Virus record (IMG/VR): IMGVR_UViG_3300043783_000054
Coordinates: 1-35,005 of that record
Length of the DNA stretch: 35,005 nucleotides
From: a virus
Strand: one strand, 5' to 3'
Shown here: in pieces, positions 313-3,063 of the stretch
Position numbering within the stretch: the first letter of the stretch is position 1
How the letters are laid out: every line of letters begins with the position of its first letter
Translations under genes and position numbers: made by a program
Notes under the pieces: model-generated
Told to the model about the DNA's origin: nothing
The model's input: the letters and a program-made list of their open reading frames with translations, nothing else
Database searches by the model: none

Positions 313-1098
313 ATGCTCAATCTCTTTTCTCCTTCCGTGCCGGTGCTCCTTGTCGGTGCCCCTGGTGTTGGGAAAACAGCAAGCGTGCAAGCGCAGTTCG
401 ATCATGCTGAAGTCGTACTCACGTCCACGCTGGTAGAGGAAGACATTTCCGGGCTTCCGTACCGTGAAGGAGACTACGACTACCGGACGATCCCAGCCTT
501 GTTTCGCCGCCTGCACGATGCTGCGAATGCTGGACGCAGCACGGTTCTGTTCCTGGATGAACTTGACAAGGCCCGCCGGTCGGTTGCCGACACCTTGCTT
601 ACGCTGGTTGCATCAAGGAAAGTCGGAAGTGCGGAACTCCCGGCAAGCACGTGCATCGCGGCGGCAGCGAATCCTCCAGAATTTGGTGGCGGCGACGGCA
701 TCAGCGAAGCGATGATATCCCGCTTTGCGGTTATCGATTACGTGCCGGATGTCTGCGCCTGGGCGGCCTGGGCTACCGGACAATTCGACACACTTACGTC
801 AGGATGTGTCATCGATGCGGTAAGGTCGGGCGAAGTACCGGTGTTCGACATGACTGGCGAGGGTCTTGACCGCCGCATCACGTCGCCCCGGACAATCGCG
901 ATGGCGTTGCGTGCGCTGGAAGCTCACGGCGGCGATAACCCGGTATTCGACGCCTTGATACGCGGGCTTCTTACACCGGCGACGGCAAGCCAGATCCTGC
1001 ATCTGGTTCTGCAACAGGGTAACGAGGTGCTGGCTAAAGCGTCGCAGGCCGCTCGTCGCGCTACGAAACTTAAAGCAATCCAACCCGTGAGGCTGTAA
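313..1098 (+). CDS. MoxR-type AAA+ ATPase
   Basis: ATP-driven remodelling enzyme of the MoxR/McrB-like AAA+ group. Walker A is GAPGVGKT at residues 15-22, Walker B is LFLDELD at about 79-85, a sensor-1 Asn sits in the AAAANPPE segment, and an arginine-finger region ISRF follows. At 261 aa it is a single AAA+ module. I chose ATG 313 because AGGGAG lies 7 bases upstream; a TTG at 295 overlapping the previous stop is possible but has no better ribosome site. Its stop overlaps the next start (TAATG), so it is coupled to the VWA gene. Known MoxR proteins work with VWA-domain partners in protein or metal-centre maturation. The substrate here is unknown. Confidence 0.9.
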   Translation: MLNLFSPSVPVLLVGAPGVGKTASVQAQFDHAEVVLTSTLVEEDISGLPYREGDYDYRTIPALFRRLHDAANAGRSTVLFLDELDKARRSVADTLLTLVASRKVGSAELPASTCIAAAANPPEFGGGDGISEAMISRFAVIDYVPDVCAWAAWATGQFDTLTSGCVIDAVRSGEVPVFDMTGEGLDRRITSPRTIAMALRALEAHGGDNPVFDALIRGLLTPATASQILHLVLQQGNEVLAKASQAARRATKLKAIQPVRL

Positions 1099-2141
1099 TG
1101 AAGCTGACCGCCGCTCCGGTTGTGCGCCAGCCGATGGATGTGATAGGCGCCCCTGGTAAAACCGACTTCACCCGTATCTTTATCGCGTCCGAACTCAATC
1201 GTGACGAGTACCGTACGACGCTTCGTCATGAACAGGCGCATGTGTGGGCGGGGCATAACCGTCGGCGCCCGCATAACGCTCGCTCCAGGTTGTGGGACAT
1301 TGCGTGTGAAATGGAAATCGCACGGACGATTTATGATAGCCGCGATCTGGATATCATCGCTGCGCCGCGCTCACGCCTCGCAGGGGGGTATCTTCCTGAT
1401 TCTCTCGACGGCTTGCCGCCAGATGCTTTGCTAGCCGAAGTGATCTACGAATGGTTGCTGGAGCAACCTGATAATGAAGTCCCTCTCCAGAAGTGTTGCG
1501 TGTGTTCTTGCGTTGACGATGCGGAAAACGAACAAGATGACTGCGCAGCACCGGAAGCGATACGCGATCAGCTCGATGCCGATGAAGCGGCACACGAATC
1601 TCAGATCGCGGCGGCATGTGCGTATGATCGCCTGAAAAACCGTGCGCCGTCGCTGACGGAAGCGGTAGACGCCGCCCTTCGTGTACGTATTGAACGCGAA
1701 AAGTCTTATCGCCGGCCGTCAAGGCGTTGCGCTGGAGATATCATTTCGCACGGCGCGATTTCAACGCCGAGGCCGCCGCTTGTCGAGATTTTCGTTGACC
1801 GCAGCGGCTCTTTTACACCCGAGAAAACTGCTGCTGCGGAACGGCAATTGGGCTTACTTCTGTCACGTTACGGCGCCACAATCAGATCTGACGTATGGTT
1901 TTTCGGGAATGGAAAGTTGACCCCTACAGACCCCGGTGGCGGCGGTGACACGCCTTATCCGCTCATAGCGCAGCACATAATCCGCTCAGCGCCCAAGCTG
2001 GCTATCGTTATTACTGACAATGATCCTGTGGGGCCTCTGGACGCCGTTGATCGCCGTACGATAGTCCTTTGTGTGCCTATCGGATGTCATAACACCACTT
2101 TGGCAAAAGCGATAGGCGGCCGCGACGTGGTGACGCGATGA
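1098..2141 (+). CDS. VWA-like protein with N-terminal HExxH motif (DUF2201-type MoxR partner)
   Basis: A 347-aa partner of the MoxR ATPase. The N-terminal half has a HEQAH motif at residues 44-48 with a further His at 53, followed by an aspartate/glutamate-rich helix, which resembles a zinc metallopeptidase-like domain of the DUF2201_N type. A Cys cluster (CCVCSC) lies at 133-138. The C-terminal half is VWA-like: VEIFVDRSGSF carries a DxSxS MIDAS motif at D234/S236/S238, and a later strand ends in VITDND. The last codons (VVTR then stop) read GGTGACGCGATGA and overlap the start of the first Gly-X repeat gene, supplying its ribosome site. Peptidase activity is inferred; the HExxH could be structural. 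Confidence 0.82.
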   Translation: MKLTAAPVVRQPMDVIGAPGKTDFTRIFIASELNRDEYRTTLRHEQAHVWAGHNRRRPHNARSRLWDIACEMEIARTIYDSRDLDIIAAPRSRLAGGYLPDSLDGLPPDALLAEVIYEWLLEQPDNEVPLQKCCVCSCVDDAENEQDDCAAPEAIRDQLDADEAAHESQIAAACAYDRLKNRAPSLTEAVDAALRVRIEREKSYRRPSRRCAGDIISHGAISTPRPPLVEIFVDRSGSFTPEKTAAAERQLGLLLSRYGATIRSDVWFFGNGKLTPTDPGGGGDTPYPLIAQHIIRSAPKLAIVITDNDPVGPLDAVDRRTIVLCVPIGCHNTTLAKAIGGRDVVTR

Positions 2142-2395
2142 AGTATCCGAATGGCTACGGCAACGGCTACAGCTACGGCTACGGCTACGGCGACGGCTAC
2201 GGCGACGGCTACAGCTACGGCTACGGCAACGGCGACGGCGACGGCGAGGGCTACGGCTACGGCGAGGGCGACGGCTACGGCGACGGCTACAGCAACGGCT
2301 ACGGCAACGGCGACGGCGACGGCGACGGCGACGGCGACGGCTACGGCAACGGCTGCGGCAACGGCCAATACCCTTACCGACTGGTGACGCGATGA
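2138..2395 (+). CDS. Gly-X dipeptide-repeat protein, unit A (85 aa)
   Basis: Low-complexity protein made almost wholly of Gly-X dipeptides, X being Tyr, Asn, Asp, Ser or Glu. It is framed by a conserved head (MKYPNGYGNGY) and tail (GQYPYRLVTR). The Gly-Tyr frame is chosen because only it has an ATG with a ribosome site: GGTGA, 4 bases before the ATG, inside the last codons of the VWA gene. It also shares its head and tail with three downstream copies. Other frames read Ala-Thr or Ala-Val and lack consistent starts. The composition resembles Gly/Tyr-rich disordered proteins. Function unknown. Confidence 0.75.
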   Translation: MKYPNGYGNGYSYGYGYGDGYGDGYSYGYGNGDGDGEGYGYGEGDGYGDGYSNGYGNGDGDGDGDGDGYGNGCGNGQYPYRLVTR

Positions 2396-2541
2396 AGTAC
2401 CCGAATGGCAACGGCAACGGCAACGGCTACGGCTACAGCAACGGCGACGGCAACGGCGACGGCAACGGCAACGGCAACGGCAACGGCAACGGCTACGGCA
2501 ACGGCTACGGCCACTACCCTCGCCAACTGGTGACGCGATGA
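2392..2541 (+). CDS. Gly-X dipeptide-repeat protein, unit B (49 aa)
   Basis: Second and shortest copy. The head is MKYPNGNGNGN and the tail is GHYPRQLVTR, the most diverged of the set. It is Asn-rich rather than Tyr-rich. Its ATG overlaps the stop of unit A (ATGA), and its ribosome site is the GGTGA within the LVTR codons of unit A. Gly-X codons are nearly all GGC followed by AAC, TAC, GAC or AGC. Confidence 0.7.
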   Translation: MKYPNGNGNGNGYGYSNGDGNGDGNGNGNGNGNGYGNGYGHYPRQLVTR

Positions 2542-2777
2542 AGTATCCGAATGGCTACGGCAACGGCTACATCTACGGCTACAGCTACGGCTACGGCGAC
2601 GGCGACGGCTACGGCAACGGCAACGGCAACGGCGACGGCTACGGCTACGGCGACGGCTACAGCAACGGCTACGGCAACGGCAACGGCTACGGCGACGGCG
2701 ACGGCTACGGCAACGGCTGCGGCAACGGCAACGGCAACGGCAACGGCCAATACCCTTACCGACTGGTGACGCGATGA
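2538..2777 (+). CDS. Gly-X dipeptide-repeat protein, unit C (79 aa)
   Basis: Third copy, with head MKYPNGYGNGY and tail GQYPYRLVTR identical to unit A. The interior is a different ordering of Gly-Tyr, Gly-Asn and Gly-Asp steps plus one Gly-Ile. It is coupled to unit B through ATGA and the same embedded GGTGA ribosome site. Identical ends with a rearranged interior suggest duplication of the whole gene followed by slippage inside the repeat. Confidence 0.73.
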   Translation: MKYPNGYGNGYIYGYSYGYGDGDGYGNGNGNGDGYGYGDGYSNGYGNGNGYGDGDGYGNGCGNGNGNGNGQYPYRLVTR

Positions 2778-3037
2778 AGTATCCGAAAGGCTACGGCAAC
2801 GGCAACGGCTACGGCTACGGCTACGGCAACGGCTACGGCAACGGCTACGGCAACGGCTACGGCAACGGCTACGGCAACGGCAACGGCTACGGCTACGGCT
2901 ACGGCTACGGCTACGGCTACGGTGACGGTGACGGTGACGGCTACGGCTACGGCTACGGCTACGGCTACGGCTACGGTGACGGTGACGGTGACGGCTGCGG
3001 CAACGGCCAATACCCTTACCGACTGGTGACGCGATGA
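2774..3037 (+). CDS. Gly-X dipeptide-repeat protein, unit D (87 aa)
   Basis: Fourth copy, head MKYPKGYGNGN and tail GQYPYRLVTR. The interior contains a run of five alternating Gly-Tyr-Gly-Asn steps and then two perfect 54-bp blocks, each six Gly-Tyr and three Gly-Asp (2885-2938 and 2939-2992). The Gly-Asp steps there use GGT instead of the GGC used elsewhere, so this block expanded recently. It is coupled to unit C by ATGA, and its own LVTR codons lead into a 9-codon reading frame. Confidence 0.73.
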   Translation: MKYPKGYGNGNGYGYGYGNGYGNGYGNGYGNGYGNGNGYGYGYGYGYGYGDGDGDGYGYGYGYGYGYGDGDGDGCGNGQYPYRLVTR

Positions 3038-3063
3038 AATATCTTAAAGGAAATCCGATATGA
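3034..3063 (+). CDS. Nine-codon remnant of the Gly-X gene head (MKYLKGNPI)
   Basis: After the LVTR codons of unit D the same junction GGTGACGCGATGAA recurs and starts a frame reading MKYLKGNPI, which stops at TGA. The head matches MKYPKG of the repeat genes with Pro changed to Leu, but no repeat follows. Its TGA overlaps the ATG of the next gene (ATGA), and its codons contain AAAGGA, which serves that gene as ribosome site. It is either a truncated fifth copy or a coupling mini-frame. Whether the peptide is made is unknown. Confidence 0.5.
   Translation: MKYLKGNPI

Follow-up and report, generated by a model that had tools for sequence, protein, structure and literature searches.

A Sm-like protein and a hypervariable Gly-X repeat protein form a near-constant gene pair in phages, joined in some lineages by a MoxR/VWA pair

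The near-constant unit described here consists of two phage genes, one for a Sm-like protein and one for a Gly-X (GX) repeat protein, to which a MoxR ATPase and a VWA protein are an add-on. We encountered it in the IMG/VR record IMGVR_UViG_3300043783_000054, positions 1 to 35,005; this whole stretch of 35,005 nucleotides is called the window below. There, a 91-amino-acid protein with a predicted Sm fold (p91), a MoxR-type ATPase, a VWA protein with an HExxH motif, and four GX repeat proteins are encoded in a row on the plus strand. A first-pass annotation had joined the ATPase, the VWA protein, and the repeats into one candidate system built around the MoxR/VWA pair. Its grouping is right for the phage family of the window, but its center is wrong: it left out the Sm-like protein, the repeats' near-obligatory partner. 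Each part can be placed in a known or named family, but for the combination and the rule that it follows no counterpart is known.

A blind scan for any (GGNNAY)8 array returned at least 120 matches, and the figures drawn from it apply among the matches listed. About 96 loci held Tyr-containing GX open reading frames (ORFs), which had many different leaders. When the neighbors of GX loci were clustered without a prior model, the dominant family was Sm-like/DUF6948, present on the same strand at 75 of 101 loci; at many of the other 26, GX sits at the edge of the stored stretch. GX was the nearest downstream gene of 70 of 78 Sm-like genes, with a median gap of 27 bp, and representatives of these Sm-like partners match Pfam DUF6948 (PF22253) above the cut-off. 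The reverse scan, which was blind to GX, took the best 160 of about 970 relatives of two Sm-like profiles. Six loci were cut short and left out, and an array lay directly downstream in 150 of the 154 evaluable ones, a proportion that applies to the closest relatives and was obtained with query profiles derived from GX loci. The pair is also present in all eight named phages (RcapNL, Barba18A, phiPLPE, Ymer, ctOK67, ct8d5349, IKEMa6-1, and CV-1-33), and in one contig (L065) a single ORF fuses DUF6948 (E = 1.6e-16) to GX.

DUF6948 and a repeat ORF that annotation often misses or misframes are near-obligatory partners in very many phages. The GX gene is unannotated in phiPLPE and is called “lamprin” in ctOK67 (L177), and in Chlorobiaceae phage CV-1-33 (L179), the ORF annotated over the GX array at 2792-3037 (MAMALA...) appears to be out of frame. 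Wrong-frame calls and names of this kind hide the family. Our literature search found no paper describing the Sm-like/GX partnership and none on DUF6948, on Sm-like proteins with MoxR in phages, or on a phage GYGYGYG protein. In four contigs (L134, L138, L094, and L058), GX forms the N-terminal stretch of a longer protein; these proteins have a C-terminal domain in common, VDGxPTxIxSxxGNxAxG, which had no Pfam match in L134 and L138, the two tested.

Among 80 other GX contigs, 7 carried a substantial phrog_1297 (MoxR) match and 73 did not. In most of these seven unrelated MoxR-bearing contigs, MoxR adjoins GX or lies within about 5 kb: it is directly beside GX in L117/L166, L050/L172, L149/L169, and L137/L168 (the order in L166 is GX-Sm-GX-MoxR-DUF2201) and within about 2 to 5 kb in L073 and L109, with L163, roughly read, at about 4 kb. 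Conversely, MoxR occurs in N4-like, PBS1-like, and Vibrio phages, with a partner that is unnamed or, in the N4-like phages, of DUF2201 type, and the regions inspected there contain no GX. The two pairs, Sm/GX and MoxR/VWA, are therefore separable and have been joined repeatedly. The first-pass annotation had said that its single system would be undermined by MoxR/VWA relatives with unrelated neighbors and repeats elsewhere. This was borne out in part, because GX mostly occurs without MoxR and MoxR with its partner is found without GX. What survives of the single system is that the parts travel together in about a dozen lineages; what does not is a defining role for MoxR/VWA.

In the window, p91 is encoded at 23..298 (+) and ends 14 bases 5' of the gene for the MoxR-type AAA+ ATPase (313..1098, +). 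The latter shares one base (TAATG) with the gene for the DUF2201-like protein (1098..2141, +), and ATGA overlaps link this gene to GX1 and each GX ORF to the next. The four repeat proteins are GX1 (2138..2395, +; 85 amino acids [aa], MKYPNG...QYPYRLVTR), GX2 (2392..2541, +; 49 aa), GX3 (2538..2777, +; 79 aa), and GX4 (2774..3037, +; 87 aa). All four start with MKYP(N/K)G and end with LVTR, three of them with QYPYRLVTR. Beneath them runs one hexanucleotide GGC-NAC array (2153..3007, +), which Tandem Repeats Finder reports as a single array of period 6 with a score of 616. A vestigial fifth GX leader, MKYLKGNPI*, can be read at 3034..3063 (+) and runs into the next gene, which starts at 3060. 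The genes and motifs reported earlier for 313 to 3063 were all recovered by direct reading, overlapping or nearly so. The MoxR-VWA-GX string is real and not due to chance, because it turns up again in phage contigs that are independent of the window. The left boundary was drawn too narrowly, as the conserved unit starts at 23 with p91.

Relatives of the cassette were sought by protein searches of IMG/VR and GTDB genomes with scripted annotation. p91, MoxR, VWA, and GX occur together in about a dozen phage lineages with the gene order shuffled, so the co-occurrence that had been suggested as a check on the system is found. All four parts are present in L002, L003, L005, L008, L019, L020, and L025/L026, the carriers including prophages of Dyella (L019) and Luteibacter (L020). 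The order is GX-p91-GX-MoxR-VWA in L031, MoxR-p91-VWA followed by six GX in L033, and p91-MoxR-VWA-GX in L032/L035. In L028, p91 is followed by seven GX, and MoxR lies at the opposite contig end; this contig is probably one circular genome cut inside the array, and at 6273-8160 it holds a tandem run of seven or more GX ORFs that use GGA-NAT codons and reach the contig end. No evaluable contig has a p91-type Sm protein without MoxR. The C-terminal tip of GX, (GX)n-YPY, was also sought at the DNA level with no regard to neighboring genes; 15 stretches turned up in 13 contigs, 11 of which carry cassette genes, and the remaining two begin inside an array. From position 7640 of L020 (the same as L006), a degenerate third GX copy, analogous to the vestigial leader of the window, follows the arrays (MKYPNGTGDEIMLPESEEYASGQYPSDDEAIDEG), indicating that array genes decay. 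A DNA pattern search with the leader and linker also returned L012 and L013, which were rejected as unrelated and without a GX frame.

p91 is the most conserved part of the cassette, with 57 to 86% identity across 12 relatives. Among close relatives its identity is 73 to 86%, compared with 62 to 71% for MoxR and roughly 57 to 66% for the VWA protein. An AlphaFold2 model built on an alignment of 13 sequences (predicted local distance difference test [pLDDT] score, 78) shows the five strands of the Sm fold. A Foldseek search with this model gave Sm/LSm proteins in 50 of the 50 top PDB rows (best E value, 6e-4), and VIA-align gave a Z score of 8.1 to LSM14 over 62 residues at 1.8 Å, all top rows again being Sm/LSm. 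VIA itself cautions that a Z score around 8 may reflect a common structural arrangement; the uniformity of the match list makes the Sm assignment credible despite this. p91 has no direct Pfam match, including to DUF6948, in contrast to many of the Sm-like GX partners. It does appear to be a distant member of the DUF6948 superfamily through an intermediate profile: hhalign links p91 to profile A6 at 6.5e-6 and A6 to DUF6948 at 5.7e-8, whereas the direct comparison is not significant, and the p91 model matches models of DUF6948 phage proteins structurally.

The window ATPase has the Walker A motif GAPGVGKT and the Walker B motif LFLDELD, matches phrog_1297 at E = 2e-24 and Pfam AAA_5 above the cut-off, and has the neighboring VWA gene expected of a MoxR family member. 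The Walker motifs (GxPGxGKT and LDELDK) are conserved in eight relatives. Assignment to bpMoxR (PF20030), the family of the MoxR-vWA-beta-propeller ternary conflict systems, was rejected at 16.9 bits against a cut-off of 27. The partner protein, which matches phrog_1314 at E = 1e-12, combines a putative N-terminal metallopeptidase-like domain (HEQAH at residue 44, with a conserved acidic residue in CEMEIA) with a C-terminal VWA domain bearing a metal ion-dependent adhesion site (MIDAS; DRSGS at residue 234). Of 16 homologues inspected, all have HExxH and the downstream acidic residue, and 15 have a clear MIDAS. The VWA fold was recovered in the C-terminal half, from residue 226, with a Z score of 8.8; the whole AlphaFold2 model is weak (pLDDT, 60), and the N-terminal domain is interpreted by its motif only. 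The protein scores 16.0 bits for DUF2201_N against a Pfam cut-off of 23.2 (PF13203/PF09967). It has the DUF2201 feature set of HExxH and a C-terminal VWA domain with MIDAS, and distant homologues at the same position score 106 and 117 bits for DUF2201. The PHROG label of this family, “HNH endonuclease,” does not hold up: the motifs, the Pfam matches of the homologues, and the fold point to DUF2201/VWA.

Across 219 distinct GX arrays (6,523 units), the X residues were Y (39%), D (25%), S (18%), and N (11%); His (0.7%) and Cys (0.4%) are scarce even though they are one transition from Tyr codons (for His, CAY versus TAY). The chains are on the whole acidic. Within arrays, entropy is 0.14 and 0.17 bits at silent positions versus 1.14 and 0.69 bits at positions 4 and 5: slippage or recombination homogenizes the copies, and the residue alphabet nevertheless stays mixed. 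Codon use changes between lineages (GGC-NAC; GGC-NAT in Luteibacter; GGA-NAT in L028) and the residues stay the same, which argues for constraint at the protein level. The arrays are nevertheless hypervariable, with very fast turnover. The Pectobacterium phages Taid, Abuela, and Amona have Sm genes that differ at about 1 base in 399 (99.7% identity), but their GX proteins have 85, 73, and 67 residues in differing order; in Barba phages with identical Sm genes, GX differs by one unit or one residue. A diversity-generating retroelement was considered because the variation sits in NAC codons. No reverse transcriptase (PF00078) was found in the window record or nine related records, and the window array mostly keeps the second A of the codon unchanged, which also disfavors such an element. 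Pfam TrAA12 matches to GX fell below the cut-off and were set aside as composition artifacts.

The observations establish that the genes are linked and conserved, that a Sm-GX fusion exists in nature, and that the array is constrained at the protein level yet hypervariable. We propose that the cassette works as a single phage module, with expression probably early in infection, in which the Sm-fold core (the p91/DUF6948 superfamily) would form a ring that binds nucleic acid and the adjacent GX proteins would be the disordered tails of this assembly, supplied in trans. Acidic disordered tails regulate the Sm protein Hfq, in which such a tail acts as a nucleic-acid mimic that competes for the ring (PMC5606850). 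GX chains could in like manner bind the ring and compete with or gather nucleic acid, and their alternation of Gly with Tyr, Asp, Ser, or Asn amounts to a sticker-and-spacer composition. Tyr- and Gly-rich sticker-spacer chains favor condensation, and the GX chains may form a local condensate or ribonucleoprotein. MoxR/VWA pairs act on partner proteins by remodeling them, and the pore of the ATPase is plugged by the VWA domain (PMC9976466). On that ground the motor may act on the Sm/GX assembly: in the phage family of the window and a few others, the MoxR ring with its HExxH/VWA partner would remodel, release, or clip Sm/GX, with specificity conferred by the VWA subunit.

A Sm-type ring with disordered GX tails in trans, remodeled by MoxR/VWA where present, is thus the reading that we favor, tentatively and as somewhat more apt to be wrong than right. 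Several points weigh against it. Ring formation, RNA or DNA binding, condensation, tail function, and MoxR/VWA action are all steps that we infer. The Sm fold of p91 is a prediction built on 13 sequences, and it stays a prediction because sequence profiles do not reach the Sm proteins of the PDB: profile searches of PDB sequences returned no Sm-type chain. The two pairs are each found without the other, and one 4.5-kb contig (L007) carries p91-MoxR-VWA with no GX alongside. Asp-poor arrays are not acidic, and GX2 of the window has an isoelectric point of 8.1. We are more doubtful of the broader proposition that phages possess a widespread two-gene system of Sm ring and disordered chain, which might be a condensate with nucleic acid. 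In this picture, repeat slippage would remake the Gly-X chains at a much higher rate than the remaining genome changes, and some lineages would have added a MoxR/VWA-metallopeptidase motor that assembles or dissolves the system. DUF6948 gains a predicted fold and a testable partner from this work. The findings also suggest that phages make a Sm-type complex whose tails are encoded in trans, that these are a natural case of fast-evolving sticker-spacer proteins, and that phage MoxR/VWA pairs possibly have a defined target.

An alternative hypothesis is that two independent modules share an operon and that MoxR/VWA acts on another target, presumably as in N4-like phages. There, MoxR occurs with a DUF2201-type protein in the absence of GX, N4 genes 24 and 25 are listed as core genes of the group (PMC4193335), and the lack of MoxR in 73 of 80 GX contigs points the same way. 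We consider this explanation unlikely, given that p91-type proteins are always found with MoxR in evaluable contigs, that the parts stay together where their order is reshuffled (L033 and L031), and that several unrelated lineages place MoxR directly beside GX. The array could also work as DNA, in recombination, packaging, or regulation, or be a selfish microsatellite with incidental ORFs. Its near-invariant silent positions, homogenized by slippage or recombination, would suit such a role, but residues persist while codons vary by lineage, the arrays avoid codons for His and Cys as well as stops, both the leaders and the C-terminal tips show in-frame conservation, the ORFs are ATGA coupled, and a Sm-GX fusion exists, all of which makes this idea very improbable.

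Extreme array turnover between near-identical flanks could instead reflect an arms race with a host factor, GX and the Sm-like protein being a counterdefense or host takeover effector. Recombination genes lie nearby in several phages; ERF was found near GX in 12 of 50 contigs and RecT in 3 of 50, counts that lack a background and are not used as proof. The pair is phage restricted as far as tested, with DUF6948 in 0 of 369 gammaproteobacterial genomes, a search in which the control gave no match either. Hexanucleotide slippage alone yields fast turnover, however, and the residue alphabet is strongly conserved rather than diversifying; a PADLOC search of defense families gave nothing convincing, and we judge an effector role slightly less probable than independent modules. 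It is more improbable again that HExxH/VWA is an active peptidase and the GX proteins are its substrates or peptide precursors, cut at the conserved C-terminal YPYxL(V/I) tip. HExxH and the acidic residue downstream are indeed universal among the homologues inspected, and the YPYxL tip occurs mainly in p91-type families, with cassette genes in 11 of the 13 tip contigs. Yet most GX proteins have neither the tip nor MoxR/VWA, no export or processing genes were identified, and the tip could equally serve as a docking motif.

Known systems resemble the cassette in part. Hfq and those other Sm/LSm proteins whose disordered tails are acidic or Gly rich are alike in the Sm fold (here predicted) and the acidic disordered chain. 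Unlike in Hfq, the phage chain, although fused in L065, is usually a separate protein encoded next door, often tandemly duplicated, and hypervariable, and sequence comparison detects no resemblance to Hfq, Sm, or LSm proteins. RavA-ViaA and NorQ-NorD likewise set a MoxR ATPase beside a VWA protein with MIDAS, whereas the phage VWA partner has an N-terminal HExxH domain, and the cassette neighbors are Sm-like and GX proteins, not a respiratory enzyme. N4 gp24/gp25 belong to the same phrog_1297/phrog_1314 ATPase and DUF2201-type families, but the N4-like loci inspected lack GX and N4-like phages are much larger. The phage-derived Sm-like protein 3BY7, from an environmental sequence, is among the structural matches of p91, with no match at the sequence level. 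We know of no GX partner for it.

Elsewhere in the window, the gene at 3676-4323, shortly 3' of the cassette, encodes an apparent signal peptide and a beta-barrel-like sequence without a Pfam match; its product could alter the host surface. A 23-bp tandem repeat, CTTGCTGACTTTCTGGCTGACTT, lies at 6611-6669, where the primase gene ends. The right half of the genome holds a possible purine-synthesis-like gene, 29718-31061, whose product matches the ATP-grasp (A) domain of phosphoribosylglycinamide synthetase (GARS_A, above the cut-off).

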